Shown here: one piece after another, positions 1 through 64,000 of the stretch
Layout of the letters: every line of letters begins with the position of its first letter
Position numbering within the stretch: the first letter of the stretch is position 1
Assembly: GCA_017506865.1 (NCBI GenBank)
Contig: JAFCMP010000148.1
Span: 62,001-126,000 of the forward strand
DNA length: 64,000 bases
DNA from: Tribonema minus
Lineage: Eukaryota > Sar > Xanthophyceae > Tribonematales > Tribonemataceae
Direction: 5' to 3'
Program-made: the position numbers and the translations under genes
The notes under the pieces: model-generated
Told to the model about the DNA's origin: nothing
Databases searched by the model: none
The model's input: the letters and a program-made list of their open reading frames with translations, nothing else

Positions 1-3000
1 GAGCAGCACGGCTCAGCGCCCCCCTCAAAAACCCCTCCCCCCGCAAAGCTGAGCGCTGCTGGGACGGCGGCGTCGCTGAGCGTCGGCGCGGCGACGTGGG
101 CGGAGACGCTCGCGCTGAGCTCCACGCTGCAGAACCGTCTGCTGGCGTGCCTGCTGAGCGTTGCGCTGCTGTGGGTGACGAGCCTGTCGACGGCGAGCTG
201 GCTCACGTTCGGCGCGATACCGTCGCCGCCGCTCGTGGACGTGTACGCCGCGGTGGTGAGCCCTATGTACATACATATACAGAAGTGTGGTACAAGGTCA
301 GATATTGTTCAGTATGTATGGAGTACTTGCATGTGCACATCGGTGCAATATTGTCGCCGCCACTTGTCGAGGTGTACGCCGCGGTGGTGAGCCCCCTGTA
401 TATATACGACAGGGTCATATAAATGTCTGTGCGTATGCGTGTAGGATTCTTTGTACTTCAAGGTGTATACTTCAGAAGTAGTTCAGAGATGAAGTGTGTA
501 AGATTGGCATGACAGTGACCAGCCTGTCCACGGCGAGCTGGCTCACGTTCGGCGCGATACCGTCGCCGCCGCTCGTGGACGTGGACGCCGCAGTGGTGAG
601 CTGCGTGTAGGACCATACGCGTGTACTGTACGTATGTGTGTAGGATGTTTCGTACTGTGAAGTATACAATTCGGAGAGGGCATGTGTAAGATTGGCGTGA
701 CAGCGTCGCCGTCTGTGGTGGACGCGCGGGTCAATGGCTGAAACGGTCATATTTTTGCATACTCTGAAGTATATATATATAGAAGCATGCCAAGGTTGTA
801 AGCACGCACGGTCAGCTGAGTAACGTTGCCCTCATGAACGTGTATGCCGCAGTGGTGAGCCACACGTATCGTAGCGTACAAATGCCATGCTTGTATGCAA
901 CTTGAAGCTGCATTATGAGCAACTGCTGCAGATGCGTGGAGCGCCACGGTGGCGCTGGAGCGGAAATGGTGGCGTGCTCGCCGAGGACTGTCGAGCGCAG
1001 TGCTGATGCACATTTGCACTTCATACTTGTACTTTTTATTAATTCTCGCTCAGGGCGCGAAAAAGCCCAGATGATTGGCGTCTAGCTGTAAGGAATCTAC
1101 ATGTCGTATGACAGTCTGAAATACTTGTACTTCTGGTCACAGCGTTTTCTGCATACTCACCCTTCTGGTCATAGACTATTACGCCGAGCAAGGCACTGTT
1201 ATGTGCACTGGGGCACTTGAAGTTACACAAAGAACGATTCCTTCACAGGTGAACACAGCGGCACACCTCCACCGTGACCCCTGAGCACCCAGCACTGACG
1301 CCCCATCTCGCGACCGCCGCCGCCGCCGCCACCGCCGCCGCCACCGCCGCCGCCGCCGCTGCTCGCCGCGCCGCGCAAACAGCGCTACGCGGCGCACGTC
1401 GCGCAGGAGCAGCGCAACGAGTACGCGGCGTGCGCGGATGCTCAGGCGCCGGCGTGCGAAGCGGACCTGCGAGCGTTCGAGGCGGGCGCGCGCGCCGCCG
1501 GCGCCGCCGCCGCCGCGGCCAACGCCGCGCGCGTCGCGGCGGCGCGCGCGGCGACGCTGTCGTGCCGCGCCTCCACGGGCGCCGCGGTGGCGGTGCTGCA
1601 GGCGTGGACGGCGGCGTCGCAGGAGGTATGTAGGGTATGGGCGGACCCTGAACCTAACCCTAACCTAACCCTAGCCCTTACCCTAGCCCTAGCGCCTGCG
1701 CTGTCGATGACGGCGATGGGCGTCGCGTGCAGACGGCGGAAAGCTCAGTTCAGAGCAAGCCCGTCATTCTTAATTCGATGTACGACAATAACATCTGTCG
1801 ACATGATGCGCACGCGCCGCAGGCGCCGTCGCGCTGCCAGGACGGCGGCGGCGGCGGCAGCAGCGGCGGCGCAGGTGAGCTCTGTTAGTCAGGACATCAA
1901 AAACTTCAGCCAGGATGCAGTAGAAGCATTGAGGCCAAGCGGCTGTCTGCCGCCGTTGTGGGCACGTGCCGCAGGTGCCATTATGCTGTCAGCATGGTGA
2001 CGGCAGCGGCAGCGGCAGCGGCGGCAGGGGTGAGCTCACGGCAGCGCTGACTGGTGGGCGCAGTTCTGTTCTGTTGCGCTGTGTTGATCATGAGACCAGA
2101 AACTTCAGCGATAATGCAGTAGAAGCATTGAGGCCAAGCGACTGTCTGCCGACGTTGTGCGTGCGGGCTGCAGGTGCCGTCGCGCTGCCAGAACGGCACC
2201 GGCGACGGCAGCGGCGGCGACGGGGGCGAGCTCACGGCGCTGGCGAGCACTGTTCAATTATGCTGCGCCATGTTAATCAGGAGACAAAACGCTTCCGCCA
2301 GAATGCAATAGAAGCATTGAGGCTAAGCAGGCATTGTGCGCACATGCCGCAGGTGCCATCGCGCTGCCAGAACGGCACTGGCGACGGCAACGGCAGCGAT
2401 GGGCGCGAACTCACGTCGTTGGTGGGCACCGTGGCGGGGGGCGGAGGCACAGACATATCGGCGGCGTTCGGCGTCAGCGCGGCGGCGTACAAAATCCAGT
2501 CAGAGGTGCGTAAACCACGACACACTGCTGCCTGTACAATGCTCACGGCCGTCGAGGTCAAGAATTGGGGTAGGATGAGGGTTACAAGTCCGCGCCGGGT
2601 ACAAGGCTCACAGCCGTCAAGTTTAGGGTTAGGGGGTAAGGGTAAGGGTTACGAGTAAGGCTAACATTACATTAGGGTTAGGTTTGAGGTTAGGGATGAG
2701 ATTAGGGTTGAGGCAGGGGTTATGCACTGGCCTATTCATTGTATAGCGCAGTGGTCGGCGCGGCGCGCAGCTGCACGCAAGGCACCTGCGGACGTCGGCA
2801 GCGCGCGCGTTTTTCTATTTCCACGGCACTCGGTGTCTTGTACTCGACCCCGCAGTCCGCTTGGTCTTGCATGCAGCCATGATCACGGACAGGCCAACAT
2901 GTACGCACGGCCTGGTGTTTATGTATAAAAATCGCGAGGGGGGGACGGGGTGTCCTATGTGTCCGTAGGGCTTACTCCCATGCAGCAGCCTAGTCTGCAC

Positions 3001-6000
3001 TGCGCTGCAAGAGCTTGGACACCGCTGCTGCAACACAGCCCAGCATGGGCGCACCGTGTGTGTACTCCATGCACAGGGTCTGGGCTGAGCAACGTGATGC
3101 GTTCATAAACCGCGGGTGTTAGTGCACCGCAGTACACACGAGGTGGTTGCCATTGAGACACTTTCATATCGTCACATGACACATGGATTCTGTACTCCTT
3201 CAAGCTGGCCAGCACCACCCCCCCTCCCACAGTGAGCACGTCTCATAAGTGTTGCGCTGCGCTGGGCTTTTGCGCGTCTCACGTCCTGCCGTCGCTGCCG
3301 CTGCCGCCGCCGCTGCCGCCACCGCCGCCGCCGCTGCCGCTGCCGCTGCAGGAGCTGGTGGTGCACATGAGCACGTACACGCAGGAGCGGCAGGCGTACG
3401 ACGCGGCGTTCGCCGCCAACATGTGAGTGCGCGGAGCACTCAGCGGCAGCGCTCAGCTCGGCTGAATGTGTTGCCGTCGCGTGGGTGGGATCCCGAAAAG
3501 CGAACCTACAGGTGGCGGGTTGGGGTTAGGGTTAGGGTCAGGGTTCAGGGTTCCTAACCCTCATTACTTGTTGCCGCTCAGGGTTAGAATGGAGGTCATG
3601 GGAAGGGTGTCAGGGTTAGGTTTGAGGTAAGGCTTGCGAAGCTGTGGCTATGACTGTGGCTCGGTTGATGGAGCCAACGAGCTTTCACCCGGGCGTGATG
3701 TGGCGGGATTGCGCCAGCAGTGGTCACTCGAGCACATGACACCCACTGCAGCCGCAATTTACCTTGAAGATGCGGAAGGACCGTGATGCTCCGCAGTGGC
3801 ACAATGCTGAACACGAAATGTCAGGCTGCATAAAACTTTGCATTTTTGTATTTCAGGCAAAGTCACAAAGTACGGCAGCAGTGCCGCATGAGGCATGCCC
3901 GTCACGAGGAACTCGGACGCACGGGAAGTGGCAGCAGCACTTAAGACAATGAGGTGTGCACTGCTGCACTGAGCGCTGCTGTGCCGTGCGCAACGGCGAC
4001 GGCTCAGGCAATGCACCTCTTTGTGAAATCAGTGTGGCAGTGATCTGACGCATTGCATTCGGCGGCACTGTCGCAGGGGACGTTCGCAGCACCGTGCCAC
4101 GAGAGCTCAATGTATATGTGCAGAACATAACATACGCCGTGCACTGCTCCAGAGGGCGACGCGCCACGCCGCGTTTCTGCGCGCAGAATACATGGACTTC
4201 AAGTAGTGTACCCGTGCCGTGCACTGCTTCAGAGGGTTGACACGTCGCGCCGCGTGTGTGCGCGTAGAACACATGTGATATACATGCGCAGTGCGCTGCT
4301 TCACGCGGCGGCGCGTCATGCCTCGTGCGCGTCCGTGTCCGTGCGCGTAGAATGCGATGTGATGTGCTGCGCGCTGCTTCAGACGTTTACACGTCATGGC
4401 TCGTGCGCGTTTGTGAATGCGCGTATGCCATTGTGGCAGGACGCTGGCAGCGGAGAGCGCAGCAGCGGCAGTGCCGGCGGCGGCGGCGGCGGCGCTGGCG
4501 GCGCATGCTGCGACGTACAGTGCCGCCATGGCGGAGCTCGTCAGCGCCGCGGATGACCTCGTGTCATGTACTTCGCCGCGATCTCAGGTATCAGACGCAT
4601 GGTGATTTGTTCGTAGCCTGCTACGAGTACGCCAGATGATGTGTATGATGCTAGATGTACTTGAGCGTGACATCAGTATGTGTAACTGATAGCGGCGCAG
4701 ACAGCACGGTGTCGTGCACGTCGCCGCGCTCTCAGGTATCGGACGCGGTGATGATTTGTGCGTGAGTTATATGATAACATCAGATGATGGTATCATGTGA
4801 GGGGTGCCTGTACGTGACAGTGTTTGTATTTGACACGGGCGCGGACGACTTGATGTCGTGTACTTCGCCACGCTCTCAGGTATTGAACGCGTGATGATTC
4901 GCATGTAGTCTTCTACGATAATATCAGCCTGTGTGCATCAGTCACGCTAGAGGTCACTTGAATATGATTTTGGCGCCGCATACAATTTTACACCGTGTGC
5001 ACGTCGTCATGCTCGCAGGTAACGCTGAGCGTTTTGTAAACGCATTTGTATCATGGCTACTGTGGCTACAATTGTAGTGTAGCGCACTTGCGTCATAGCC
5101 CTAACCCCTAACCCTGACCCCAGAGGCAGTTGCGTGTTGCAATGCGGCCCACAACTTTAGCACTCCTCGAGGCTGATAGTCTCACATGCACATCCCATCA
5201 GCTCCGTGGTCGCGTGAAGAAAACCCTGCTACCTATTAGGGCTTAAGAATAGCTTTAGGGTTGTAGAGATGAGAAAATAGATTTGGGGCTAGGTGTAGGG
5301 GGATAGGGCCAGGTTGGGGTAGGGTCAGAGATAGTGTTAGGGTGAGGGTGAGGGTAGGGGTTTCTGGTGAAAACGCTAAGCGCGCGCCGCCCCGGTCACG
5401 GAGACGTATGCAAGTGGTCGCGGCCTGCAAGACCGCCGACGGTGTGCGCGTGGGCTACATTAGGATGAAAATTAGGGTCGGGGCTGGCTATGGTTAGGGT
5501 TAGAGGGAGGGTCAGGGTTGGGACCAGGATTCTGACGGAAACTTTGAGCACGCCACCCTCTTGTGGAGACGTGAACAGGTGGTCGCCGCCTGCGAGACTG
5601 CCGACGGCGTGCGCGTGGGTTAGGGTTAGGGTCAGGGCTAGGGTGAAGGTTAGGGGTTGGTAAAAAAGTAGGGTCAGGGCTAGGATTCCCGATGCAAACG
5701 CTCAGCGCGTCGCCCCTGTTGCGGAGTGGTATGCAGGTGGTCGCCGCCTGCAAGACGGCCGATGGTGTGCGCGTGGCGCTGGACAGTGTGGTGACCACGC
5801 TGCAGGCGCAGCTCGCCAAGACGCAGGCGGCGCTGCGGGCGTATGTCACGGCCATTGCGCTCTACCAGGTGTGTATTCTGTGGCTCTTGTCACCGCGTGC
5901 TGCTGGTCTTCGACTGAGATCAGAGCCGCTCGCGGGCGTTGTGCATGTGCGTGTGTGTGTCTCTGTCAGGTGCTTCACGATACGAGGTGCTTCACGATAT

Positions 6001-8066
6001 GTAAGCGGTTCTGTGCATGTGCGTATGTATACGTGTATGCAGCAATTAGGGCTAGGTCAGGGTGAGGGCCGGCCGTCATGTGCCCAGCATGCAGCAGAGC
6101 CGAGCAGAGGGCGTTAGCAGCAGCGTCTCCTGCATCCATTCACTTGTTGATCCATTCATTCGTGCATTCACCTGCCATGCACTCGCTCATGCGCATCCGT
6201 GCACAGCTGCGGCAACCACATCATTCACGACCGCAACGCGTGCGCGCATCCCCGTCCTGCGGCACATGTTCAACACTTCCCAAGTTGCTCTCGGTGACGT
6301 GCCCGCGCCCGCCCCCTCTACCCTGCCGCACCCCTAACCCTAACCTAACTCTAACCCTAACCCTTACCCTAACAATGCCTTGCAGGCCGACGTCCAGGCG
6401 GCATTCGCGGCGGCGCAGGCACTGTACGCCAGCATCGACAGCGCCCTCAACAAGCTGAGCCCTGACGCGAAGAGCCTCGTCAGCAGCCTGCTGGGTGAGC
6501 GATGCGTGCATGTACAGGGCTGTCATGGCTGTAGCGCGTGATGTAATTACAGTACTATCGCAAAGGGCGCGGTGCCGTTGCTCTGCGGGCATTGGCTGCA
6601 GCTGCAGCCTACAACTTTCAACATTTGTATCCCTGACACCAGGAAGCTCATCAGGGTTGCCGTACGTGATCGCACATGATCATACGCGATCATTGAGGTT
6701 GGGGGCGATGCGTGCATGTACAGGGCTGTCATGGCTGTAGCGCGTGATGGTTTGGGTTGGGGTTAGGGTTCGAACTAGGGTTAGGGTTAGCCCTAACCCT
6801 ATATTTAAATTTAGGTTAGGGCTACCCCTAACCCAACTCAGGTCAGGGTTAGGGTCAGGTTAGGGTTAGGGCTAGCTGTAACGCTAACCGTACTGTCGCA
6901 AAGGGCGCGATGCCGTTGCTCTGCGGGCATCGGCTGCAGCCTGCCACTCTCAATAGCTGCATCCAGGAGGCTCATCAGTGGCCTGCTAGGGTAGGATTGC
7001 TTGGCCACCGATCGGAGAGGTCCCCGCCCCTACTTCAGGGCTCACAGCTGAAGCATTGTACATGCGGTACATTCGCCTCGATTCTTTGATTCGCACTCGT
7101 GAGGTCTCACACACCTGCAAGCAGAGAAAGCAACTGCAGCTGCAGCTCGCGCGCTCGTACGGCAAGAAGGTCCAGCGACGCTGTGAATCCTACATGTTGA
7201 GCGCCGCTTCAACAAGACTCGGACTCACACATCTGAGTACACGAGTCTCATTCCCTGCGCAGGTCCGTGGGGCCTGCTGAGCGCTGCCCTGGCCCCTTCG
7301 CTGCGCGCGGACGTGCCCGGCGTGGACGGCGTCCTGACGGGCGCGCCGTCGGTGGCAACGCTCGACGAGGTGTGGGCCGCATCAGAGGGGTGAGTGACTC
7401 TCCTGTGACCACCAGCCCCCTTGAACTTCAACACTAGCGTACCACCAGCCCCCTTGAACTTCAACACTGGTCAAGACTGTCTGCATGCTGGTGCTGTGCC
7501 CGGCGTGGACGGCGTGCTGAACAGCGCGCCGTCGGTGGCAACGCTCGACGAGGTGTGGGCCGCTTCAGAGGGGTGAGTGACTCTCCGCTTCTCACCTCTT
7601 CAGCACCGGTGCCGGTCAACTGCAATGTCGATGTGTTGCCCGGGGAGCGCGAGCAGATTGGTGGTCAGACCGGTCGCACGGCGCAGTGTGCGCAGCACGG
7701 ATGGTGTGCTGATCAGTGCGCCGTCAGCGGCAACGCTGGATGAGGTGTGGGACGCGTCAGAGGGGTGAGTGACTCTCCGCTTCTCATCATCTTCAACACT
7801 GTTGCAGCTCAGCACTGTGCCCAGGCAGACTGGTGGTCGGACTGTTTGTATGGCTGTGCGTGCACAGCGTAGTTCGCGTGCTGACGGGCGCGCCATCGGT
7901 GGCAACGCTCAACGAGGTGTGCCCGCGTTGGAGGAGTGAGTGACTCCGCTTCGATCAAAACACTGTCAAGATCAGGTGACTCGCCGCTCCTACTTCAATA
8001 CTGTTCCAGTTCAAGGGCAGCGTTCAAGTGTGTTGTGGACCGTGATATTTCTAAGTGAGCTCTTAC

Positions 8067-8100
<34 letters not shown>

Positions 8101-9085
8101 GCCCTCCACGATTGGGCGGAAATGAGCCCTGCCTTGCTGACTGTAACGCCCCCACTCAGGCTGTGCAACACTCCAGTGATGCAAGGAGAGCTAGCAACTC
8201 AGACTTGTCAGCGTGAGGTGATGCAAACCAAGCAAAGTGAATGCCACTGAGGAACATGAGCACATGAGACCTGCGTGTGTATGTGTGCCACGGGGGGAAC
8301 ACAGCAATCCCAGCACGCGATCGGTCGCCGCACGAAGCGCCAAAAGAGTGTCTGCAGCCTACCAGCACGGCCGCGCGCGCTGGCACTGCGCGCGGATGTG
8401 CATGCTATATGTCCCTAACCCTAAGCCTAACCCTAATCCTAACCCTAGCCCTAACCCTAACCTTAACCCTAACCCTAGCCCTAACCCTAACCCTACCTAC
8501 CCCACCCGTATGATAAAACCTGAAGTGCGACCTGCCGTCTTGCAGAGCGTACGAAGATTACCAGGCGGCCGCGGCGGCGCTGCAGACGAGCGCCGCCGCC
8601 GCCTAATCCTAGTTCTAACCCTAACCCTACCCCTAACCCTACCTACCCCACCCGTACATACCATAAAACCTGACGTGCCACCTGCCGTCTCGCAGAGCGT
8701 ACGAAGACTACCAGGCGGCCGCCGCGGCGCTGCAGACAAGCGCCGCCGCCGCCGCCGCCGCGCTTGCGGCGCAGCTCAATGCGACGCTGGACGCGCAGCT
8801 GCGCGCGCTGCTGCCGGGCGGCTACGACCCGCCGCGCTACTGCACCAGCGCCGCCGCCGCCGCCGCCGATGCTCATGTGGGCGCGTCTCTTGAAGCGGCC
8901 AGGTGTGCGCCATTGCTTAGCAGCGTGGTATGCCATTCCTAGACACGCAATGCTAATGTACATAGTGCGCGGGTGACTCTGGCTTGAGAGGGGCATACGG
9001 GATGCGTGCTCTGGGGTGCTTGCAAGTGCTGCGTCTGCTGTTGGCGGGTGGCTGTGAAATGCCGCGCTGCTGGTGCTGCTGCTGC

Positions 9086-9142
<57 letters not shown>

Positions 9143-10715: not shown

Positions 10716-10769
<54 letters not shown>

Positions 10770-26973: not shown

Positions 26974-27027
26974 TCAGGGGGATCCCATCGGCGTCGTGTA
27001 GCCGCCGCTGCCATCGCTGCCGCCGCT

Positions 27028-46571: not shown

Positions 46572-46606
<35 letters not shown>

Positions 46607-47501: not shown

Positions 47502-47542
<41 letters not shown>

Positions 47543-50500: not shown

Positions 50501-52052
50501 CGCCGAGCCGCACGTACGCCGCCGCCTGGCCGCAGTAGTGCGCGTCCGCGGCGCCGACGCTCCACAGACAGTGGTCGAAGAAGAAGGAGCGCTCCCATGA
50601 GGACTGCGCGGAGAGAAGGGGCAAGATCGCGACGCGGCGTTTTGAGTGTAGTCGTCGACTTTGGGTGCAGTCATGATGCGTCTGCTGTTGCACGAATGGC
50701 GATCGCGATATGGTCTGTTTAGTCGTCAGTGCGGGCCACAACTGATTGCGACACGACGTTTTCAGTATGGCCGTTGGTGCGGATGCGGTCACGGTGCAGG
50801 CGCTGCCGCGCGAATGGCGAAAGCAATATGGCCTGTTCAGTCTTCAGTGCGGGTGCGGGCAGTCTTGTGGGTGCTGCTGCAAGGGCGGGGTGCGGTGCGT
50901 TTATCGCGCGCGCGCGTCTGGACGCGCTCGTGCGTCTGTTGAGGCTGCAACGGCGACCTGAAGCGTGCTTGTGAGCGCGGCTCTGGTCGTGCGGCATGGA
51001 TCATCCATCAAAGCGCTACGCAGTGCACAATGTAGTACCTGAGGGAAGACTGTCGACATCGCAGCCACCATCTCTACCTCTGGTACGTGTCTCAATCACA
51101 AGAATGAGTGGATGATTGTTGTCCCAAATACGCACGTGTAAAAATCAAGGCGCAAAAGCAGCAAGTGCCGCCATACCGCAGCCAGCATGTTGGGGTGCGC
51201 GCCTGCACCGTTCGCACTCTCTTGGGGTGCGTCGGTCTGCTGCTGCTGCTGTCGTATGGGATGCCACAAACTGGGCTGGGCGGTACCTCACCTTCTTCTT
51301 GTCACTGGTGGCGCCGCCGCTGTCTACAGTGTCGTAGTACGTAGGATCCAGCAGCCGCGTGGTGTTGCCGTCCATGCTGATGATGGAACGGCACCCCGCC
51401 CTGCGCTCTGCGGCTGAGAAAGGCCTCACCCTAACTGCCACGGTAACCCTCGACGGGTCTTTGGCCGAGCTGCAATGCACCAGATGAGCCCAGAGTCAGC
51501 CACAATGCATGACATATTACAGTGGCAGAGCGGCAGGCTTCAGCAGTTACAGTTGGTGTCGTAAACAGAGTTGGCAGTCTTCGAGAATTCCGCCTATTGC
51601 GTTGAGACGCTCGCGAAGGGACGGGAGGGGTCGGAAGGGCACCGACGCTGACGCCAATACACTCACCGGGATTGCTCGGCGTCTGTTGCAGTCAGCTCTA
51701 GTGCGTTGCTGGTCTTGATGGCTGCCTGTGCTGGTGCTAGTGCCGCTGCAGCGGCATCTGCAGCAGCAATCACACCTGAGCTGCTGCTACTGCTGCTGCT
51801 ATCGTCGGAAGACCTCCTGCTCCACAGCAGCTCCGCCTCATCCATTGTTCGCTTATCGACACCGTGGCTGTGCCTCCTCCCTTGCGGCGAGTGGCTGGGG
51901 GGCTTGATCAGCCCCTGCACTCTGCCGCCTGCAGTCGATCGCCGCGAGTTTTGGTGCTCATGGCGCTGATTGACTAGCGCCACCACTGGAGGCCCGCTCC
52001 CTCTCAACCGCGGCGGGCTAGGAAGGGAGCAGCCCTTCATACTCTGCGCCAT
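26974..52052 (-). CDS. Kinesin-3-like motor with giant Ala-rich coiled coil, 22 exons
   Basis: Exons (minus strand): 52052-51667, 51469-51292, 50603-50366, 49719-49586, 49003-48847, 47846-47422, 46996-46863, 45810-45651, 44857-44708, 43092-42982, 42009-41879, 40976-40759, 39881-39643, 38939-38574, 38141-37896, 37329-37118, 36674-31904, 31637-30945, 30559-30431, 29254-29109, 28594-28345, 27306-26974. All phases match, giving 3268 residues. After a Ser-rich N-terminus of about 130 residues comes a complete motor: [11 protein letters not shown]-loop [18 protein letters not shown], switch I NEVSSRSH, switch [36 protein letters not shown]. The order and wording fit kinesin-3, an ATP-driven microtubule transporter, but no FHA or PH domain is seen. 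The stalk is coiled coil throughout, with a Ser/Pro-rich insert (exon 13). The tail ends in poly-Gly and GYTTPMGSP. The start is the first ATG in the frame. Cargo is unknown. Confidence 0.88.
27307..28344 (-). repeat. Echoes of kinesin exon 21's 3' end and donor
   Basis: The exon tip encodes [20 protein letters not shown] then GTGAGCGCTGCC. A copy at about 28263-28160 keeps some 40 codons and the donor; a more decayed one lies at about 27990-27915. A CCCTAACCC tract of 100 bases (28016-28118) sits between them. Confidence 0.9.
29905..30330 (-). repeat. Three echoes of kinesin exon 19's 3' end and donor
   Basis: The true exon end (sense GTCAAAGAGAGG/GTGAGAGG at 30431) recurs near 30276, 30112 and 29909. 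Each copy has 55-60 bases of exon and a GTGAGG-type donor, at intervals of 155-205 bases, with CCTAACC tracts between them. Confidence 0.9.
30745..30795 (-). repeat. Echo of kinesin exon 19's 5' end and acceptor
   Basis: Sense-strand GCTCTCGTGCGTATGCAGTTTGCC copies the acceptor and first codons of exon 19 (CGTGCGCAG/TTTGCGCTG at 30559). Exon 19 is thus echoed on both sides, each time in the neighbouring intron. Quoted parts are the 3' half of the match. Confidence 0.8.
31904..36674 (-). other. Kinesin mega-exon: 1590-codon Ala-rich coiled coil
   Basis: A single uninterrupted exon of 4771 bases in a gene whose other coding exons are 110-700 bases. Acceptor CCACCAG/G and donor CAG/GTAAGC are in phase with both neighbours. 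It encodes endlessly varied units around [17 protein letters not shown] and AAEHAAALxxL, with Glu, Asp, Lys and Arg at regular distances and Cys, His and Met rare. It suggests a very long rod. No stop of any kind interrupts it, so the frame is under selection. The opposite strand is also open for long stretches because of base composition. Confidence 0.85.
37370..37625 (-). repeat. Duplicated intron block and exon 16 5'-end echo
   Basis: A block of about 100 bases (plus strand GGTCAGCGTCTGCGTGTTTT onward) at 37376-37465 recurs at 37483-37580. A degenerate copy of the exon 16 start lies at about 37595-37625 (plus strand GAGTGCCGTCTCGCACTGTG). Confidence 0.7.
38155..38300. repeat. Minisatellite of about 45 bases, three units
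   Basis: GCGGCAGCGTCAGTACCCGC, CAGCCACGCACA and variants repeat three times just upstream, in the sense direction, of kinesin exon 15. Confidence 0.8.
38946..38978 (-). promoter_or_regulatory. Pure C tract before the exon 14 acceptor
   Basis: On the minus strand a run of more than 25 C, broken once by CTGCGG, immediately precedes CCCCCCACAG/GAGGCC. It acts as the polypyrimidine tract. Similar sense-strand C tracts precede exons 6, 21 and 22 of this gene and exons in its neighbours. Confidence 0.7.
39345..39475 (-). repeat. Dispersed repeat, copy B
   Basis: The reverse complement of this stretch matches copy A (1023-1125) closely: CTCAGGGCGCGAAAAAGCCC, GGAATCTACATGTCGT and GACAGTCTGAAA in the same order. 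The TTGAGACACTTTCA end is shared with 3153-3167 and, inverted, with about 13160. It lies in an intron of the kinesin gene. Confidence 0.6.
39524..39562 (-). repeat. Echo of kinesin exon 13's 3' end and donor
   Basis: Sense CTCGTGCAGGCGCAG/GTGCGG copies the true exon end CTCGCGCAGGCGCAG/GTGGGG at 39643. Confidence 0.8.
41035..41205 (-). repeat. Two echoes of kinesin exon 12's 5' end and acceptor
   Basis: The coding start GCAGAGCTCGCAGAGGCCCA at 40970 recurs as GCGGAGCTGGCTGAGGCCCA at about 41090, continuing for some 60 bases and preceded by CAG. A bare acceptor copy lies near 41195. Confidence 0.88.
41735..42250 (-). repeat. Echoes flanking kinesin exon 11
   Basis: Downstream, a piece of the exon (plus strand GGACTTCTCCGTGGCAAATTC at 41748) recurs next to CCTAACC repeats. 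Upstream, a unit of about 90 bases (plus strand GGCTCTTGCGTCAGCA and GGCTCAGTCAC) occurs three times near 42050, 42140 and 42220. Confidence 0.75.
42557..42591 (+). repeat. CCCTAA array, six units
   Basis: A perfect run of about six CCTAAC units in a kinesin intron. It is in the antisense orientation, so the pre-mRNA reads TTAGGG. Confidence 0.92.
43195..43415 (-). repeat. Echoes of kinesin exon 10's 5' end and acceptor
   Basis: Plus-strand GCGCACTCGTGCCTGAGCG and CAACTCATCCTGAAT (from the exon start at 43092) recur near 43200-43238 and, more decayed, 43316-43366. TTAGGG tracts separate the copies. Confidence 0.85.
43860..44707 (-). repeat. Eight-step ladder of donor echoes after kinesin exon 9
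   Basis: The donor context (sense CCAATG/GTGAGAACACG at 44708) recurs near 44580, 44447, 44331, 44217, 44088, 43995 and 43914, at steps of about 80-135 bases. Each unit also repeats a block of TAGGTATTGCGGC type and a GGTGGCGTATAC/GATGGCGTATAC block. Only the first donor joins in frame to exon 10. Confidence 0.88.
45030..45405 (-). repeat. Three echoes of kinesin exon 9's 5' end and acceptor
   Basis: Sense CAG/GTGGAGCGCCTGCGCGCTGC (exon start 44857) recurs near 45053, 45195 and 45385. The second copy keeps about 70 exon bases. The stretch before the acceptor (GTCAACGCTCTCGCG) is copied too. Confidence 0.9.
45480..45525 (-). repeat. Echo of kinesin exon 8's 3' end and donor
   Basis: Sense GCTGTTGGTCTGCGGGAGGAG/GTATGTATGG copies the exon end CAGTTGGTCTGCGAGAGGAG/GTATGTATAG at 45651. 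Confidence 0.9.
45960..46228 (-). repeat. Two echoes of kinesin exon 8's 5' end and acceptor
   Basis: Sense CAG/CCCCGCGGCTGAGTCCTACC near 46016 and CAG/CCCCCGGCCGGGTCCTACCA near 46220 copy the exon start at 45810, each for 50-60 bases (through CTACGTTGTG). Confidence 0.92.
46577..46603 (+). repeat. Poly-G run of about 25 bases
   Basis: An uninterrupted G run, a C run in kinesin pre-mRNA, within the intron between exons 7 and 8. It is one of the longest homopolymers here and a likely spot for assembly length errors. Confidence 0.9.
46735..46772 (-). repeat. Echo of kinesin exon 7's 3' end and donor
   Basis: Plus-strand CCGATGGTGGCGAGCATGGTGGTGCGCGA repeats the exon end (plus strand ACCTGATGGTGGCGAGCATG at 46861) together with the upstream TACC of the donor. 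The first 20 bases quoted for each are the shared part. Confidence 0.9.
47925..48030 (-). repeat. Echo of kinesin exon 6's 5' end plus duplicated leader
   Basis: Sense GCAG/CCTCCACGGCCCAGAACGA copies the exon start at 47846 and then diverges at once into GGGTATGCATGCGCG. That block also occurs about 110 bases further on with the same flank. Confidence 0.85.
48110..48860 (-). repeat. Echoes of kinesin exon 5's 3' end among CCCTAA tracts
   Basis: The exon end (plus strand GTCATGCGCCGCGCCGCGCC at 48849) recurs near 48722, 48527 and 48366, each with 45-60 bases of exon. Nearly all sequence between the copies is degenerate CCTAACCC. The intron is thus an alternation of exon echo and telomere-like repeat. 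Confidence 0.9.
48291..48336 (+). ncRNA. tRNA-Met-like 3' half (anticodon arm, T arm, acceptor strand)
   Basis: TCAGG-CTCATGA-TCTGA forms a five-pair stem with a seven-base loop centred on anticodon CAT (48298-48300). It is followed by a five-base variable loop AAGTC and a perfect T arm GCAGG-TTCAAAT-CCTGC, then TCACCCA. The wording is that of an elongator or initiator Met tRNA. The matching 5' acceptor strand (TGGGTGA) and a D arm are not found upstream, nor downstream as in a permuted tRNA gene. It is therefore a fragment or tRNA-derived remnant, antisense inside a kinesin intron. Confidence 0.6.
49130..49510 (-). repeat. Three echoes of kinesin exon 5's 5' end and acceptor
   Basis: The exon start (plus strand GCAAAGAGGTCGCCAACCTG at 49003) recurs near 49187, 49336 and 49502, each with about 50 bases including CGCACGCGCAGCGGGT. 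TTAGGG-type repeats lie between. Exon 5 is echoed on both sides, seven copies in all with the original. Confidence 0.92.
49870..50215 (-). repeat. Echoes of kinesin exon 4's 5' end and acceptor
   Basis: The exon start (plus strand CAGCCCCTGCCCGTCCGGCC at 49690) recurs near 49877, 50025 and, in part, 50165. Each copy has the CCCATCGTTGCTCGC acceptor context and a following block with ACACACCAACT. Confidence 0.9.
50640..50880 (-). repeat. Tandem duplication of about 125 bases upstream of exon 3
   Basis: Plus-strand CGAATGGCGATCGCGATATGG, TCTGTTTAGTCGTCAGTGCGGG and neighbours recur as CGAATGGCGAAAGCAATATGG and CCTGTTCAGTCTTCAGTGCGGG. The unit ends short of the exon, so this is intron-only duplication. 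Confidence 0.8.
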
Positions 52053-52975: not shown

Positions 52976-53803
52976 ATGGAGGACCGGATTCACGCAGGGA
53001 ACGGTGCAACAGATAGCCAGCGGTGGGATCCGGAGGTCAACTACAGTCAGCACAGTAATGGACTACAGAGCTTTTGGCAGCCCCCTGCTCGGCGCAGGCA
53101 GCCAGATGACGAGGCTGCCATGCACAGGCAGGCCGCCGCTGCTGCGCACAAACAGCAACACGACTTTTACGCCTACGGCGAAGGCCACCAGCAGCAGCAC
53201 TTCCAGGCGCAGCAGCAGCAGCAACAGCAGCACCTGCACCAGCATCATCACCACCAGCAGCAACAGCAGCTGCAGCAACAGCAGATGCAGCACCAGCAGC
53301 ACCAGCAGCAGCAGCGCATGGCGCACCAGCCGTCGCCGCAGAGCCGGCAGCACAGCGGCAAGGGCGCGCTGCACTGGCCCTCCCGGATAGGCGGCATCAT
53401 CTCAAATCGGCACAGCGGCGGCCCTGGCGGCCCTGGCGCCGGGCCCGGCAAGCTCGGCCACCCCTCCTTGGCGGGGGGCATGTACGGCATGCCGCCCGGT
53501 GCGGGGCGCCCCGAGCTCCCCCACAACCTGCAGCAACCCCCGGCCCCCTACAACCGCATCCCGGGGTCCATGTCGGCCGACGCGCTGCAGGCGAGCCTCT
53601 CCGGCCTGAGCCTCAGCGACGGCGGCGGCGGCGCCATGGCGCAGAATGGGGGCGGGGGCGGGGCGCTGCCGCCCCCCCCCGGGGGGCGTACGCGGCGCCC
53701 CCGATCTACGCGCAGCACACTTTCCCGGGAACGTTCCCGGGGCCGCAGCACCGCGGCGGCGGCGGCGGCATAGTGCCCGCGTCGGCGTCGGGGCTCAGCG
53801 CCA

Positions 53804-53861
<58 letters not shown>

Positions 53862-56800
53862 AAGCAACGCGTCGTCCGAGGCGGTGTCGCGCGTCCTCAT
53901 ACCGAACGCCAAGATCGGCGCCGTCATCGGCAAGGGCGGCGCAATCGTCAAGCACATCCGCGAGTGCAGCGGCGCGCGCGTGACGATCTCGGACGCCGGC
54001 GACGACGCGGGCTGGGCGGGCGGCGGCGGCCCCGGCGGCGGCGAGCGCCTCGTCCACCTCGTGGGCTCGTTCGGCGCCGTCGTGGCAGCGCTCGGCGCGA
54101 TTCTTGCGCACGCGGAGACGCCCAGCAACGGCGAGCCGCTGCCCGGGCTCGCGCAGCTCGTCGCGGGCGGGCTGCTGAGCGGCGAGGCGGCGGCGGCGGT
54201 GGATGCGGCGATCACGGTGCCGCCGAGCGCGTTCCGCATGCTCATACCCAATGCCAAGGCGGGCGCGCTGATTGGTGAGCGCCCAACTCTAGCCCTAATG
54301 GTAACCCTTGACTCGAATGATCACCGTGCCGCCAAGCACGTTCCGCATGCTCATACCCAACGCCAAGGCGGGCGCGCTGATTTGGTGAGCGCCCAACCCT
54401 AACCCTAACCCTTGTTCTGGATTCTAGCTCTAACACAGAATGCGCTGATAGGTGAATCTTGGAGTGCGGCGGCGACGCCGCAGCGCTGATAGGCGAGAGC
54501 CCAACCCTAGCTTGAACCCTCATCCTTGACTCTGACCTCAGTATATGGCGCGCTGACGAACGAGTCCGTGAGGGCGGCGGCGACGCCGCAGCGCCGGGCA
54601 TCGGCGCACACGCGTGGAAGCATGTGTCTGTGTCTGCCGCGGGCTTGCACAGTGGGCGTGTCTGTGGTTTTTCCAGTGCGTGTTCGTCATCTCGGGTGCG
54701 GCGGCATCGGCATCGGCGGCGGCGGTGCGGCGCTGGAGCTGTGTACGCTACTCAGAGGAGGAAGCCGGGGGGGGAGGGAGGGGCCCCTAATGCTGCAGGA
54801 GATGACTGCGCGCAGTGCTCTTGAATGCCGTCTTGGCTGTGTGAGGCGACGTTACTGCGTGTGGCTGCATCTGCCGCAGCTGCTCCGCGCCGTGTGGGCG
54901 CAGTGCCGGCAGGGGAGGGGAGAGGGGGGGCGGGGGGCGACATCCAATGGGGTGCAAGGCACAGCATTTGCCAATTTTGCGGGGAGACGTATCAGAACAG
55001 GGAGGGCACGGCGCAAGACAGAGGTTTGAGCGGCACGTCACCTCTGTCAGCACCGCCAACTGTGACGCGCAAGAGGGCGTGACGCTCCGCTGCCGCTGCT
55101 GCGCGCTGCCGCCCCGTGCACCACCTCACAGCATCACACGTACACTACCCGTAGCGATGGCGCACCCTAGCTACAGTACCTCACATGTATTTTACCCGTA
55201 GCAATGGTGCACCCCAGCTACAGTACCTCACATGTACGCTACCCGCAGCGATGGTGCACCCCAGCTACAGTATCACATGTACACTACCCGTCGTGACGGC
55301 GTACCTTAGCTACAGTACCTATCACACGTCCTCTACTCATAGCGATGGTGCGCTCAGCCTCGAATGCCGCCGCCCGCCACCCGCCGCCGCGCTAACCCTA
55401 GCTACAGTACCCATCACGTGTACTCTACCCATAGCGATGTTGCGGCCTAGCCACGCCGCTGGCCGCCGCTGCGCTAATCTCCGCCTATCTACAGCACCTA
55501 TCACATGTAATATACCCGTAGCGATGTTGCCCCCTAGCTGCGCCGCCGGCCGCCGCCGCCGCGCTAAATTCCGCGCCCCCGCCGCGTCTTGCCGCGACCT
55601 TACGTGCTCACGCAATGAGAGTTTTATTTTGTGAACCTTAAAATCTGCATTGCAGGCCGCGGCGGCACTACCATCAAGGCCATCCGCGACGCGAGCGGCG
55701 CGCGCATCGAGATCTCCAGCCACCTCGCGGGGAACCTGCCGGCGCCGCCGGGGGGCGCGGGCGCCGCGGGGCCGCCGACGCCCGCCGCCATCGCCGTGGC
55801 GCTGTCTGCGGACCGCGTCGTCTCGGTGTCGGGGCCGTTCGCGGCGTGCGTGCGCGCGCACCACCTCATCGTCGCCAGCGTGAGTGGCTATGTGCGGGCG
55901 TACTTGTTCTTGAGGGGTACTCTTGAAGTGTACTCTTGAAGTGTGCTGTACTTCAACGTGCGTCGTGTTGGTGTTGGGGCCGTTCGCGGCGTGCGTGCGT
56001 GCGCACCACCTCATCGTCGCCAGCGTGAGTCGTCTCGCACATGGCGCAACCAGCAGGGCACCTTCCTGCTTATTGCTGCTGCTTGTCTTCACGTACCCAT
56101 GCAGTGCCGCGCGACGTGCGCACATGACGATCTTGAAGTGTAATTGTGAAGTATACTATTCAAGTATATTCTTGAAGTGGGCTATACTTCAACATGCGTC
56201 GTCTCGGTATCGGGGCCGTTCGCGGCGTGCGTGCGCGCGCACCACCTCATCGTCGCCAGCGTGAGTACTATTGAAGTTCGATATACTTCCATGTGCTTCG
56301 CGGGGGGTCGCGGGCCGTTGGCGGCGCGCGCGCGCGCGTGCGCACCGCGTCATGTGTCGCCTTCTTGAAGTGTACTCTTGAAGTAAGCTATACTTCAACA
56401 TGCCTGGCTGTTCGTGTCGGTGTCGGGGCCGTTCGTTCGCGACGTGCGTGCGCGCGCACCACCTCATCGTCGCCAGCGTGAGTCATTGCTACGAAAAGTT
56501 CAACCCAAACCCACGCATCCCATTCAAACCCAAACTGGTCCCCGCTATCACACTGCACCATTGAAGATGGTAGTGCGGCGCGCGCGTGTCGTGCGCATGT
56601 GCATGCGTGCGTGTTCTCAAAGTATACCACTCTTGAAGTGTGCTATCACTTACACATGCTTCGCGGGGTGTCGGGGCCGTTCGCGGCGTGCGCGCGCGCG
56701 CACCACCTCATCGTCGCCAGCGTGAGTACTCTTGAAGTTTGCTATACTTCGACATGCTTCGCAGGGGGTCGCGGGCTGTCGGCGGCGCACGCGTGCGCAT

Positions 56801-59800
56801 GCGCACCACTTCTTAAGGTATACTCTTGAAGTATGCAACACGTCAACGTGCTGGGCTTTCGCAGGGTGTCTGGGCCGGTGGCGGCGCACGCGAGCGAGCC
56901 CAACGTGAACTTCAAAGTTGCAAGTTGAAGTTTGTACTTGCGGCCCTCGCGCAACGTGTCGCGTGGTTGCCACGTGGTGCGTCGCAAGCACGAGTGCGTA
57001 ACGCCTATTCACATGCATACATGCATATACTAAGTACACCCATACTTCAATACTTCTTTGAAGTATGTATATATTCGAAGTATTTGCATGTGCCTGGCTT
57101 TTGCAACATGTGTCATGTATGTACCCTCGTGTGGCCGCGCCTGACCCCTGCCACCCCTGCGCATGCGCTGCTGCTGCTGCCGCTGCCGCGGCCGCTCGCT
57201 GCAGCTCGCTGTTGGTACTGCTGCTGCTGGTACTGCTGCCGCTGCTGGTACTGCTGCTGCTGCTGCTGCTGCTGGTGCTGCTAATGCTACCACTGCTGCT
57301 GGTGCTGCTGCTAACTGCTGCTGCTACCACTAATGCTACTACTGCTGCTGCTGCTGCTGCTGCTTACTGCTGCTATTAATTCTGCTGCTGCCGCTGCTGC
57401 TGCTGCTGCAGATGATGGACCAAGGCGTGATGGCGATGCCGCCCCCCATCCCCATATCCATGTCGATGCCCAATCCTAGCGGTTACGTGCCAGGCGGCGG
57501 CGGCGGCGGCGGCGGCGGCGGCATGGGCTCAGGTACGCCATGCGCGCTGCGCCAAGGAGCGCTTGCTGACGCTAGCTGCAACCCCGATGACGATGCATGT
57601 TAGGTATTTGCGGGCTCGCGCGTTTGGCTTGGCAGCAGCGTGTGACTGTCGCGGCACTGCATGCAAGCCTGGGGAAGAGCGTGCCGCCGCGCGCCGCCGC
57701 AGCGTCAGTCGCCTGCATCGCTGTCGCGGCGACGCAGTGCATGGGCGGCGCGCGGTGCCCACCGCCAGGCGCAATGCCATCTCCCCAGCGACGACCGCAC
57801 CACAGCCGCACCTGCGCGATGCACAGTCCCGCTTGGCAAGCTCTACGATCGCATAGGACACCCTGCCTCCCTTGGGGCCGGTATAAATAGGGTTAGGGTT
57901 AGAGTTAGGGTTAGGGTTACCTAACCCTAAGTCCACAAGCAACGCTTGGCAGCAGCGCGAAGCGTGCGCGGAGGTCGTCGCGGGCTGCTGCTGCTGCGAC
58001 GCCGCTCGCAAGCTGCGGCGCCGCAATGCCGGGGACCGCAGAACTGAGCCCGTCATCGCCGCGCTTTCCCCGCGCATGTTGTTGTGCGTGTACGCGCCGC
58101 AGGCTACTACTCGCGCTACAGCGGCGGCATTGAGACGCTGCCGATGGCGGGCGGCGCGCGCGGCGGCGGCGGCGGCGGCGCAAACATGGACTACGGCGAT
58201 GCAAAGCTGCCGCCCGCCGCCGTAGGCCGCGGCGACTACTATGCTGGCGGCGGCGGCCACGACTTTGACGGCACCGGTGCGATGCCGCAAAGGCCTGGAC
58301 TGAGGTCTGAGGAGGGGTATGGCGGCGGCGGCGGCGGCGGCGTGGCGTCGCTGGGGGGCCGCGAGTTTGAGCTGTTTGCGGGGGGGGCGGCGGGGGGCGC
58401 GCCGCGGCTGCCGCGCGGCGCGCAGGCGCGCTCGTGGGCGCCCATGGAGGTGCGCTAATGACTCACTCACTCACTCACTCATACACTCACTCTCACTCAG
58501 TCACTCATCTTGAAACCCTTTCTGCTTACGTCTCTTCCATAATCTCGGATAGTGTATTTGACTCACTTGCCACTCGCTCGCTCGACCAATGTGTGGGCGC
58601 ACCAGGGGACGGCGGTCGGGGCAGTGTGGACACGGCCGGACCTTGAGGTGCGTCGTGCGCTCAAGTGGCCAAGTAGCAGGCATGGTCATGCCTCCACTCT
58701 GTGGGCGTGCGCGCAGGCAGGCAGTGTCGTGGTGCCTTTTTTTCGGAGGGGGGAGGTCATATGCCAGGGTCCTCGATGATGCATCGTTGTGCTTTGAGTC
58801 TGCAGGCGTGCGCGCAGCCATGCCTCCCCTGGTGCCTGCTGTGTCTAGCACGTGACCGAAGTAGCCAAGGGGGGGGGCAGGGAGGAGGGGGGGCACACGC
58901 CGTGCCGTGCGCGCTTTCGCCGCGCGGCTGACGCGGGGCGCGCGAGCGCCCGCCGAGCGCTGCGTGCTGCGCGCGTCACTGCGGCAACACATGCGCACGC
59001 ACGACGATTGTGCACGGCGGCGCTGACGGCGCAAGCCCGTGGGTGGCTAGCGCGCACGCGCGCTTGCGGGGGACGTGGGTCAGGAGGGGAGGGGGGGCGC
59101 GCGGGGGGCATTCAGCGCGGCAGGCCCATCAGCAGCGGCCCATGTACAGCCCAGCGGCGGTTCTAACAGGGGTTTGAAGGTAGCAGCGGATGGTGTTCAA
59201 ATAAGGCGCAAGCGCGGACCCACGAGCTGCATGCGCGCGCCTGCGCCCAGGCGCGGCATGGCGCCACGTGCGTCAGCGCAGGGTTAGGCTTAGGGTTAGG
59301 GTTAGGTTTGGACTAGGGTTAGGTTAGCCTAACCCTAACCCTAACCCTCCATGCGCAGTGTGCTGTCACGCAAGCGCCAGCCGCGGTGGCACGAGGTTCC
59401 TCTGGCGCTTGCACTACGTCGATCAACTGCGCACAGCCCTTGGAGCCGCCAGCGCAGTGACACGCGCATCTTGCGGCCGGTGCGCTCGCGTTACGGCGGC
59501 CTCAAGGGACATAAGTAGCACGCACTGCTCCCCTGCGGCGCCTTTCGCCGACAGCGGTTCGCACCGCCACGCTGGCACCTCTGCAGGGGATGGGATTAAC
59601 GCTGTGCTCAGTGCTCAGAACGGCGGCCGCGTGTCCGCTCAGTGTGATGTACTGGAGCATGCCCCCCCCCCCCCCCCCCCCCCCACCCCACACAGCTGCG
59701 TACCCCTTGCGCATCAGTCCAGATACTCTGTCTGCATGTCTGCATACAGCTGTTTTGTGTTGTTCCTTACTGGCGAATGCATCGTTGAAGTACCGCCATC

Positions 59801-61079: not shown

Positions 61080-61113
<34 letters not shown>

Positions 61114-62997
61114 CCCGCCCGCCTCCCCCTCCCCGACCGGGTGCCCTGGTTGCACACCCGGCCCCGCCTTTGCGGTCCGCACCTTTTCAACAGCCGCCCG
61201 ATTGCGCGGCGCACCCTCCCCCGGATAAATGCACGCCCTCCACAGTTGCGGCCGCTGATGGAACGACATCAGAATTTCGCGCTTCGGACCCAGGCATGGT
61301 CGCGCAGGCGCCAACCCCAGTGCTAGGGCTGGGCGCCCTGTGTGCGCGTCGCGAGCTGCCGTCGCCGCAGCATCAGTGTTCCCGCACTTTGATGACCAAA
61401 ATCTGTTTTCATGACTCTTGATCTTCTCTCCCGTTCGTAGGGCCCCCGCCGCCCCCCCCCCCAACCCCCTCCCCCTTTCGCTGTCTAAAGACCGTGCGCG
61501 GCGCAGCCGTCGCCCCGTGCGCGCGCGCCCTCGCTCCCACACACACACGCACATAATGCAGCACGCCTGTCCGCGCGCCCCCCTCCTCACGGTTTGAAGT
61601 TCGGCGCGCATGTGCTTGATTGCAAATGTTCCTGCCAGCGCGCGCCCGCCACTGCTCCCCATAAATGACACACGCCAGCGGCCTCTGCGGCGCCATGCGC
61701 GCAGCCTTTGCGCTTCATGCGTCTTGCTGCCGCGGCGCCCCTGTGCGGCAACTCGCGCTGCTGCGTGCATATGACCAGCATACTTAAGAGCGTTACTGTG
61801 GCTGCGCGCGCGCGTCCTTGCCTACGCGGGCCTTTTCTTTACGCTTTGTTGCCGCCGCACCCCGTGCGGCGCCTCACGCTGCCGCTTGCACGCCCCTGCA
61901 TAGCTATTCCTATCGTTGATCGACGACGGCTTGCGCGCAGCCTTTTCACTTTGCACATTTTGTTGTTGTTGTGGGGGGGCCCGCGCGCCCCCGTGCGTGC
62001 CACCAGCAAATTCCTATTTGTTGATCGGCACCTGCGCTTGCACATCTTGGTGACACGCAGAGCACTGCCATATAACGACTGCTGTCCCGGCGCAATCGCC
62101 GCTGCACGATGCACAAAACAGCATCTGTGGGCTTGAAGGGGCTTGCCGCGCGTGCTTATAGGGCTTTATAACACGGGCACAGGTTGTGCAAAGTGTGTAC
62201 CTCAAACAAAGTACATGACTGGGCTTTATTGCGCCCAAAGCGAGAACAAGAAAGCATATGACCATGACACAGGCGGCGAAGTTGCTCAGCATTGCTCGAC
62301 TGCCAACATGTGCAGGCTGATCACAGAAGCCATGGCAGCAGCAGCACAACGAACGCATCAACTGCAGTAGAGCCCATACGTTGACAAGTGTAGTGTAAAG
62401 TGTATTGTGTCAAATCTCGCACCCGTCAATCTACATGCGAAGCTGCCGCCTCCAAGGGGGCGCACAGGGCCCCACACGCGCACGCACTTCACACGGCACT
62501 TCAACAGCTACCGCAACCTGACAACATTTCGCGCGCCGACAGACGACACCCATGAACCCTCACGAAAGTCACCCCGCAGCGGCAGAGCATGGCAGCATCT
62601 GACCGAGACCCAGGCCAGCATACGACGACGGACAAAGCGAGCAAGCCCTTCTGAGCGTTGCCACGTGAGGCGCGCTTTACAAAACCCGCCCCCGCCCGAA
62701 TAAGGGGGGGGCCGGGCTCGCGGGAGCCGACACCACGTGTCCCTGCCCTCCGCGATTGTGATTATGTTACATGGCACTGAAGAGGGGAACGGGCAAACCA
62801 CTGTCTACACGCCCCCCCCCCCCCCTATCTTTCGAAATTGGCTAACAGCCCTCCGCACCCCCCCGGACACCCTTCCCCCGCCTCGTGCTGCAGTAATTGC
62901 GAGAGCACAGCCGCAGAGCGGTCGAGGACCGCACTCGTTGAGACCGGGCGGGGGGGGGGGGCGGGGTGCGGACGACCCCAGCGCGGCAGCTCGGCGG
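60454..62997. other. Intergenic region between convergent genes
   Basis: It lies between the KH stop and the stop of the right-hand gene. It is rich in C runs (about 60842-60860, 61083-61112, 61450-61462, 62812-62825) and short CA runs. The 62216-62250 stretch weakly matches the dispersed 100-base repeat. Long open frames here are low-complexity (Pro, Arg, Gly) and unsupported. Confidence 0.6.
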
Positions 62998-63890
62998 TTA
63001 TGCGGCGTCGCGGCGCGCGCCGACGTCCGCCCACTGCGTGATGCCGTTGCGCGGCGGCTCTGCGCGCGGCATGACGGCGCTGCTGCCGAGCGCTGCCTTC
63101 GGCACGGCGGACGCGTCGAGCGAGGGGCCGCACGCGTCGGCGGCGGCGGTGATGCCGTTGCTGGCGACGTCCGCGCGCTCCATGACGCCGTACGAGCCCA
63201 TGTGCGCCTGCGTGACGGAGGACGCGTCGACGCTCGGGCCCGCGTACTCGGCGCCGCTCGTGATGCCCGTCTTGACGATGGCGGGGCGCTGAAGGGGGGG
63301 GGGAGGGGGGGGGGGAAGGGGGGGGGGGGGGGATGGGGGGGGGTGAGCACTCGTGACGGTCTGCACTGCGTACAACGACGACAACGTGTCATACAGGCAT
63401 AGGGGGCGGGGGGAGACAGCGGCGCAAGGGGGTACAGTATAGACAGAGTGCTTGTGACGGTTCTGGCCGTGAGCGTGTGGAATGAGGACTCGCTTGCGCT
63501 GCATTGAAGAAGGCGCGGCGGTGCGGCAATCAGCCTGTTGCAGTCAATGTGGGAGGCAGGTAGAAACTCACGACATGACACGCTCGCGGTTCTGCCGCCG
63601 CGCCGCCGGCGTCATTACTTGAGGGCGGCGAGAGAGAGGGAGGCACAGCATTGACGACCCTCGCTCACAATGATACAGCCGCCACGAGAGGCAGCAGCGC
63701 TCACCTCCATGACGCCCGCGGTATACTAACAACGACAAACTCTGAACTTTTGTTTTGTGATGCAACACAGCGGCCACTGGCGCGCAGCGCGCAGCAGCAG
63801 CAGCGCTCTACCAAGCGCTCACGGCGCCCCCTGACACAAAAAATAAACTCTAACGGCTTGCTTGTGATGCAGCACAGCGGCCACTGGCGC

Positions 63891-63923
<33 letters not shown>

Positions 63924-64000
63924 CTCACCTCCATGACGCCCGCGGAGCCCATCGCGCAGCGCGTCATGCCGGTCGAGTCGAGCGACGGCCCCGCGTTGTC
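62998..64000 (-). CDS. Protein of 37-residue repeats, 3' end only
   Basis: The last exon is 63288-62998 (TAA). The preceding exon runs from the window edge at 64000 to 63929, with donor GAG/GTGAGC; both are in phase 0. Joined, they read DNAGPSLDSTG...MGSAGVME, then RPAIVKTGIT...GPSVDASS...MGSY, then GVMERADVASNGIT...GPSLDASA...LGSS, then a shortened unit ending GITQWADVGARRDAA. Aligning the Gly-Val-Met-Glu starts gives a 37-residue period with conserved GVMER, GIT, GPSLDAS and MGS positions. The splice falls exactly inside a GVME/R motif. I do not recognise the repeat; role and full length are unknown. The acceptor is preceded by a long C tract in sense. Confidence 0.72.
63695..63820 (-). repeat. 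Donor echo downstream of the repeat-protein exon
   Basis: Sense GCGGGCGTCATGGAG/GTGAGCGCTGCTG near 63705 copies the true exon end and donor at 63929. The CAG-rich stretch and GCGGCCACTGGCGCGCAGC block on the plus strand also occur twice (about 63770 and 63877). The quoted exon portion is 15 bases. Confidence 0.85.

Follow-up and report, generated by a model that had tools for sequence, protein, structure and literature searches.

The window analysed here, a 64,000-nucleotide stretch of contig C148, comes from the 158 Mb eukaryotic assembly of the yellow-green alga Tribonema minus, a xanthophyte stramenopile. Three genes were modelled within it: a gene near its start (the first gene), a kinesin motor gene and a KH-domain gene. 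A Pfam scan of 20 open reading frames of the window placed kinesin and KH alone above the curated cut-offs. No Rfam family reached the gathering threshold in the window, and a tRNA search of it with bacterial settings found none. All three genes had introns containing imperfect copies of an adjoining exon edge together with its splice site, here called echoes.

The first gene lies on the plus strand at 1251–8902, the start at 1251 being uncertain. Its eight exons (1251–1625, 2353–2505, 3352–3422, 4440–4587, 5737–5868, 6386–6494, 7263–7389 and 8696–8902) share one frame that is open after the first part of exon 1. Echoes were found at five of its modelled junctions and in a donor array at 256–860 that belongs to an exon upstream of the modelled ones. 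In that array the first donor is at 256 and the echoes are at 387, 596 and 855; the far copy at 596 is more exon-like than the near copy at 387, which may reflect conversion. Exon 2353–2505 is preceded by an acceptor array (1823–2353; real first exon base 2353, echoes 1823, 1975 and 2174), and exon 4440–4587 is followed by a donor array (4588–5028; real donor 4588, echoes 4736, 4880 and 5019). Two acceptor echoes precede exon 5737–5868 (5345–5737), with first exon-like bases at 5414, where the AG was lost, and 5579. A further donor array occupies 7390–7946 (real donor 7390; echoes 7573, 7765 and 7936), and an acceptor duplication at 8456–8753, 88% identical, places the first exon-like base of its echo at 8546, upstream of exon 8696–8902.

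The kinesin gene lies on the minus strand at 44708–51469, with exons 51469–51292, 50603–50366, 49719–49586, 49003–48847, 47846–47422, 46996–46863, 45810–45651 and 44857–44708, and a probable first exon at 52052–51667. Its assignment was based on a joined open frame and a match to Pfam PF00225. The gene also served as the first trial of a spliced aligner run with a profile built from kinesin homologues, which recovered the hand-placed inner junctions, moved one donor by 24 bases to 50366 (adopted here) and gave a different end for the last exons. The open frame across the joins was read with exon 50603 ended 24 bases earlier by hand.

Both acceptor-side and donor-side echoes occur in the kinesin gene. 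Upstream of exon 49003–48847 is an acceptor array (49003–49500; real first exon base 49003) of three echoes that have AG, with first exon-like bases at 49182, 49334 and 49500. Its donor at 48846 has an echo GT at 48719 (48712–48846; spacing 127) with an exon part of 64 nt at 0.89 identity, beyond which are further, more decayed copies. The other acceptor echoes have first exon-like bases at 49909 (AG kept) and 50057 (AG lost) for exon 49719–49586 (49720–50057), at 47951 for exon 47846–47422 (47847–47951; spacing 105), at 46012 and 46218 for exon 45810–45651 (45811–46218), and at 45036 and 45190 in an array at exon 44857–44708 (44857–45190; real first exon base 44857). Two more donor echoes were found, one for exon 46996–46863 (46736–46862; real donor 46862, echo GT 46736, spacing 126) and one for exon 45810–45651 (45492–45650; real donor 45650, echo GT 45492), in which the sites are 158 bases apart and the alignment starts 166.

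The KH-domain gene lies on the plus strand at 52976–58458, with a first exon that runs to 54274 and exons 55656–55879, 57412–57532 and 58103–58458. The joined exons are open from 53683 to the stop; near 53,680 (53,670–53,690), in a run of C and G, the first long exon changes frame, either through a sequencing error or through a tiny intron. Long runs of G or C were also observed at 46574–46603, 61083–61134 and 63294–63343. The KH junctions were set from tblastn of a Tribonema paralogue protein, P0241, whose alignment contained no echo sequence and whose segment ends lay no more than a few bases from the junctions of the model. Two of the three modelled donor junctions had echoes. The first is a donor duplication at 54210–54408 (real donor 54275, echo GT 54385, spacing 109; 92% identical). 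The second is a donor array at 55880–56727, in which the real donor at 55880 is followed by four echoes with GTGAGT at 56025, 56261, 56478 and 56722. The exon parts of these four were 92–98% like the real exon, and several had unrelated sequence past GTGAGT. Judging by eye, we think that the duplicated unit was about 105 bp long, comprising the exon end, GTGAGT and roughly 30 bases of intron, and that insertions split it afterwards.

In total, 16 junctions in the three genes, on both strands, had 33 echo positions that were read base by base. As these were chosen by motif and by eye, their retention of splice sites is descriptive only and tests nothing. Donor arrays with no gene model attached were also seen near 11.1k, 17.3k, 28k and 63.7k. 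In a self-BLAST of the window, repeat pairs separated by less than 500 bp were direct in 83 cases and inverted in 2; of the pairs at least 16 kb apart, 7 were direct and 8 inverted. Together with echoes at 8 of 14 tested edges of the kinesin gene, these data bore out the first-pass annotation in its report of such copies; of the about 30 boundaries in four genes that it gave, the present reading covers 16 junctions in three genes.

To look beyond the window we drew on 20 kinesin loci of 40 chosen stretches, picked for kinesin hits, and on 3 of 10 chaperonin (PF00118) loci found, picked for chaperonin hits. The aligner gave models for 20 more kinesin genes, one of which (L012) was intronless, leaving 19 usable for the echo test. 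The model at L011 (contig C113) was compared with "kinesin family member 17 [Tribonema minus]", and the aligned motor domain was identical save for one 10-residue gap at an acceptor. Chaperonin exon ends were placed from profile hits and splice motifs; for 3 of the 38 ends, which had no acceptable site, the profile-hit end was used, and unmatched exons may lie between hits. Two loci, L009 (C334) and L010 (C112), contained AT-rich fragments that match RuBisCO large subunit, which we take to be of the red-lineage type, in GC-rich contigs (core GC 0.42 and 0.39; whole locus 0.58 and 0.56), and these look like plastid inserts.

In the edge test, a query comprising at most 60 bases of exon and 10 of intron was compared with the touching intron, for introns of at least 120 bp, and an echo was called at z≥6 against 200 dinucleotide shuffles. 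Outside the window, an echo was found at 27 of 126 kinesin edges (donor 16/63, acceptor 11/63), compared with 4/86 when the query was run against the opposite-side intron of the same exon and 0/126 for the reverse complement. One of the 27 (the donor of L028 intron 6) starts from a mis-read exon: a 77-bp "intron" of that gene (intron 5), which is under the 120-bp cut, arose because the aligner read an echo as an exon. The chaperonin genes gave 14/32 touching edges, 0/26 opposite and 0/32 reverse complement. At a looser threshold of p≤0.005, with all kinesin genes pooled, the counts were 39/140, 4/98 and 6/140, respectively. Frequency against shuffled introns elsewhere in the genome was the check that the first-pass annotation had itself proposed, and the pattern held in both sampled families. 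Its statement that echoes are always in the touching intron was nearly right, the exceptions being the four edges outside the window that matched the opposite intron, three of them in L029.

Some of the sampled genes had echoes and others had none. At least one was found in 24 of 63 kinesin introns outside the window, in 11 of the 19 testable genes and, chaperonins included, at 13 of 23 loci, one of the 23 being intronless; the edge test gave no echo in the remaining 8 testable kinesin genes or in one chaperonin locus of the three (L031). They were also specific to exon edges. Purely exonic 60-base queries, taken from exons of 200 nt or more in both gene families, matched at 21 of 69 edges, compared with 2 of 69 when bases 101–160 of the same exons were used, and donor edges matched one non-touching intron of the same gene in 1 of 70 cases.

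Local direct repetition was also measured over the sampled loci as a whole. The 20 loci of 10 kb outside the window contained 137 direct and 4 inverted repeat pairs less than 1 kb apart, and direct repeats covered 19.1% of 48,902 intron bases and 0.0% of 22,240 exon bases, with inverted repeats at 0.2% of the intron bases. Two families of short motifs were also observed. Telomere-type hexamers were scattered on both strands of the kinesin introns of 21 models (CCCTAA 32 and TTAGGG 41 in 49 kb, where about 5 and 4 are expected from dinucleotide composition), with 4 in 22.5 kb of exons. The heptamers ACTTCAA and TTGAAGT occurred 44 and 29 times in kinesin introns, a roughly twelve- to twentyfold excess over the about 2.3 and 2.4 expected, and formed short palindromes in the KH array (e.g., 55918–56860).

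Copy extents and periods were determined by banded alignment of the 35 kinesin-set echoes, of which 27 lie outside the window and 8 within it. Periods ranged from 91 to 447 bp. Across 145 duplications in the window and the 20 loci, the nearest-copy spacing had a main peak with a median of 154 bp (112 of 145 in 80–240) and a small bump at 320–360. The copies were laid out in tandem. The clearest case, in intron 4 of L029, was a perfect head-to-tail duplication of 177 bp, 54 of them exonic and 123 intronic, with a third, decayed copy beyond it. Many of the 35 copies abutted, overlapped in the alignment or ran into further copies, and 11 had 61–285 unaligned bases between copies. In 31 of the 35, the aligned copy contained more than 2 intron bases beside the existing junction. 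Aligned copies were anchored at a single exon edge, as opposed to comprising a whole exon with both splice sites. One possible exception is a 39-base exon of L029, matched nearly whole in both neighbouring introns, which is possibly the start of exon multiplication.

The divergence of these copies followed what would be expected if the exon-proximal copy stayed in use, since exon sequence would then diverge mainly in the echo and intron sequence in both copies, giving a ratio of about 2 with third codon positions in between. In the exon-derived parts, mismatch between copy and original was 0.094 at codon positions 1 and 2 and 0.153 at position 3; in the intron part it was 0.119 over the first six bases and 0.189 over bases 7–60. 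The intron sequence had thus diverged 1.99 times as much as positions 1 and 2 (95% CI 1.41–2.86; expected 2), in keeping with two branches of change in the intron and one in the exon, and position 3 had diverged 1.63 times as much (1.15–2.34).

Based on these observations, we propose that introns in the gene regions sampled grow by tandem duplication across splice junctions, with the exon-proximal copy used and the other decaying neutrally, a reading to which we assign a probability of roughly 0.88. Segments mostly of 80–240 bp (median 154) would duplicate head to tail. Where a segment straddles a junction, the outer, exon-proximal copy would remain the spliced one, so that the protein is unchanged, and the remaining copy, consisting of an exon piece, the splice site and some intron, would become intron and decay neutrally; repeated rounds would produce arrays and longer introns. 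Duplication of junction-spanning segments, as the first-pass annotation had suggested, accounts for the head-to-tail layout, the carried splice site, the position of echoes on one side of the exon or the other and the 2:1 intron to exon divergence. The exon-proximal copy is probably the one spliced in the cell, judging from homologous proteins and from frame, as joining these copies gives an open frame in the kinesin gene, in the first gene (after the first part of exon 1) and in the KH gene (from 53683). In these models the used copy would be the shortest-exon copy, as exon definition would predict. At the DNA level, the duplications may arise when short patches are copied during repair or replication. 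One candidate cause is patch synthesis in the repair of nicks that lie close together, and a 2016 study reportedly described a DNA-level process that similarly yields short direct tandem duplications and is not known to be tied to introns.

Tandem duplications with similar periods also occurred wholly within introns, which qualifies any reading centred on the junction. An alternative is that splice junctions are themselves duplication hotspots, e.g., through co-transcriptional structures, so that the process is tied to splicing. When the best repeat per intron was sought with exon flanks included, 35 of 72 introns had a repeat and, leaving out one that touched both exons, 23 of 34 spanned a junction, compared with about 40% for uniform placement. 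Intron-only detection gave the opposite result, with 4 of 26 spanning a junction against 9.3 expected (4 of 25 against 8.6 in a stricter count). We think the first count is biased upwards because the constrained exon keeps spanning copies recognisable, and the second downwards because it favours pairs deep in arrays. Given these opposite biases, uniform duplication with survival of neutral events is the simplest account; with one detection scheme for a hotspot and another against, we do not claim one and consider it unlikely.

In a second alternative, the intron would have received its copies of exon edges through template switching, gene conversion or insertion. The greater exon likeness of the far copy in the array at 256 and the differing flanks in the KH array would suit such copying. 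The perfect 177-bp head-to-tail case and the many copies that abut or overlap without a gap argue for tandem duplication instead, as do the similar periods of intron-internal duplications, and we regard copying as improbable.

It is also conceivable that selection keeps the echoes as alternative or decoy splice sites, which would serve to regulate splicing or to provide further protein variants. Consistent with this, the exact 9-mer of the real donor was kept in 6 of the 17 donor echoes aligned over the site, and the exon parts in the KH array are, as described, very like the real exon. The splice dinucleotide (GT or AG) was kept in 27 of the 35 kinesin-set echoes and lost in 6, the alignment ending short of the site in 2; this is near the neutral expectation of 0.82, so no purging of decoys is seen in what is a small sample. 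Splicing at an echo would carry a cost in frame: it would keep the frame in 9 of the 35 cases, avoid a stop in 4 and do both in 1. In agreement with the first-pass annotation, spacings were usually not a multiple of three, falling 10, 15 and 10 over the three frame classes, and 62 of 73 indels in the exon-derived parts were not multiples of three. Against selection, then, stand the neutral pattern of divergence, the mostly frame-breaking indels, the single echo that would give an open in-frame product, the near-neutral retention of GT/AG and the KH paralogue protein without echo sequence, and we consider such selection very improbable.

One set of data fits neutral decay less well. In the window arrays (nine examined, eight with echo–echo pairs), identity between echoes was 0.815 over the exon-derived sequence and 0.617 over the intron-derived sequence, the corresponding values for exon–echo pairs being 0.855 and 0.606. 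These values are more unequal than simple decay predicts and count against our preferred explanation; our provisional explanation, from reading the KH array, is that insertions came later and that flanks without homology were aligned. Selection on, or homogenisation of, the echoes is hinted at by the echo–echo identities and was not supported by the codon-position and intron divergence of the kinesin set.

Finally, an assembly or haplotype artefact, which one 100% identical copy and a reading from the assembly alone might suggest, is scarcely credible given the graded divergence among copies (0 to about 26% in the exon part), the indels peculiar to each and the recurrence of echoes at the 13 of 23 loci outside the window.

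Tandem duplication across junctions may also have a wider bearing. We speculate, at a little under even odds, that tandem duplication in units of about 150 bp, the size of a nucleosome or an Okazaki fragment, leads intron growth genome-wide in Tribonema minus, with junctions routinely duplicated, decoys unpurged and the spliceosome picking the shortest-exon site. If so, the genome would amount to a natural library in which thousands of true splice sites are matched with decoys. Transposon-free lengthening of introns is difficult to follow, as duplications become unrecognisable with age. In Tribonema the same genes contain duplications of many different ages, and each copy can be dated against the exon, which serves as a fixed reference. 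Many splice sites in these genes are also naturally paired, about a hundred bases away, with a copy that is apparently unused, so the choice of the spliceosome between near-identical sites is directly testable.

The echoes can be set against several known systems. Introner elements are single elements dispersed in the introns of many genes. The echoes match their own exon edge, with the 1/70 match to a non-touching intron, a comparison made within genes, and the distant repeat pairs of the window are the 7 direct and 8 inverted ones given above. Tandem or mutually exclusive exon duplication involves a whole open exon, unlike the single-edge copies, of which one in 35 would keep frame without a stop. 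Internal tandem repeats at human exon-intron boundaries, reported by De Grassi and Ciccarelli in 2009 (PMC2812944), resemble the echoes in that splicing may remove the boundary repeat units. They involve primate paralogues in segmental duplications, with variable isoforms and 27 intron modifications, and the parts of that report available to us describe no exon-edge decay series.

In the model of Rogers (1989) and Hellsten (2011), tandem duplication of an AGGT-containing exon makes a new intron (PMC4974935, PMC2891723), and intron gains by tandem duplication have been described in Drosophila (PMC2891723). As in that model, exonic sequence becomes intron by tandem duplication, and splice signals lie within the duplicated segment. 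Unlike in the model, where both sites of the new intron come from the exon, an existing junction is duplicated here and the old site is apparently still used; the intron bases in 31 of the 35 copies, clearest in the 177-bp case, differ from a purely exonic AGGT duplication.

The first-pass annotation knew of no named process of this kind. A literature search of titles and abstract openings, with few subscription journals, found no report of genome-scale intron growth by junction-spanning duplication, which upholds that statement as regards scale and role, although close relatives have been published (PMC4974935, PMC2812944, PMC2891723). The closest of them is a potato RdRp gene in which a single duplication across an intron-exon boundary produced a new intron and inserted sequence in the mRNA (Ma et al. 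2016; PMC4974935). As in potato, the Tribonema duplications are in tandem, span an existing junction, carry its splice site and have diverged, the boundary crossing being evident in the 177-bp case and in the 21/69 edge to 2/69 interior matches. The potato case concerns one gene and a new intron, whereas in Tribonema the intron lengthens in many genes and the protein appears unchanged; as to whether exon sequence is added to the mRNA, the evidence is at the level of protein, with echo use predicted to be open in 1 of 35 and no echo sequence in the KH paralogue. Single cases and related models of intron gain were thus already in print, and what appears to be new in Tribonema, as far as the literature searched extends, is the scale of the process and the part it would play in lengthening introns.
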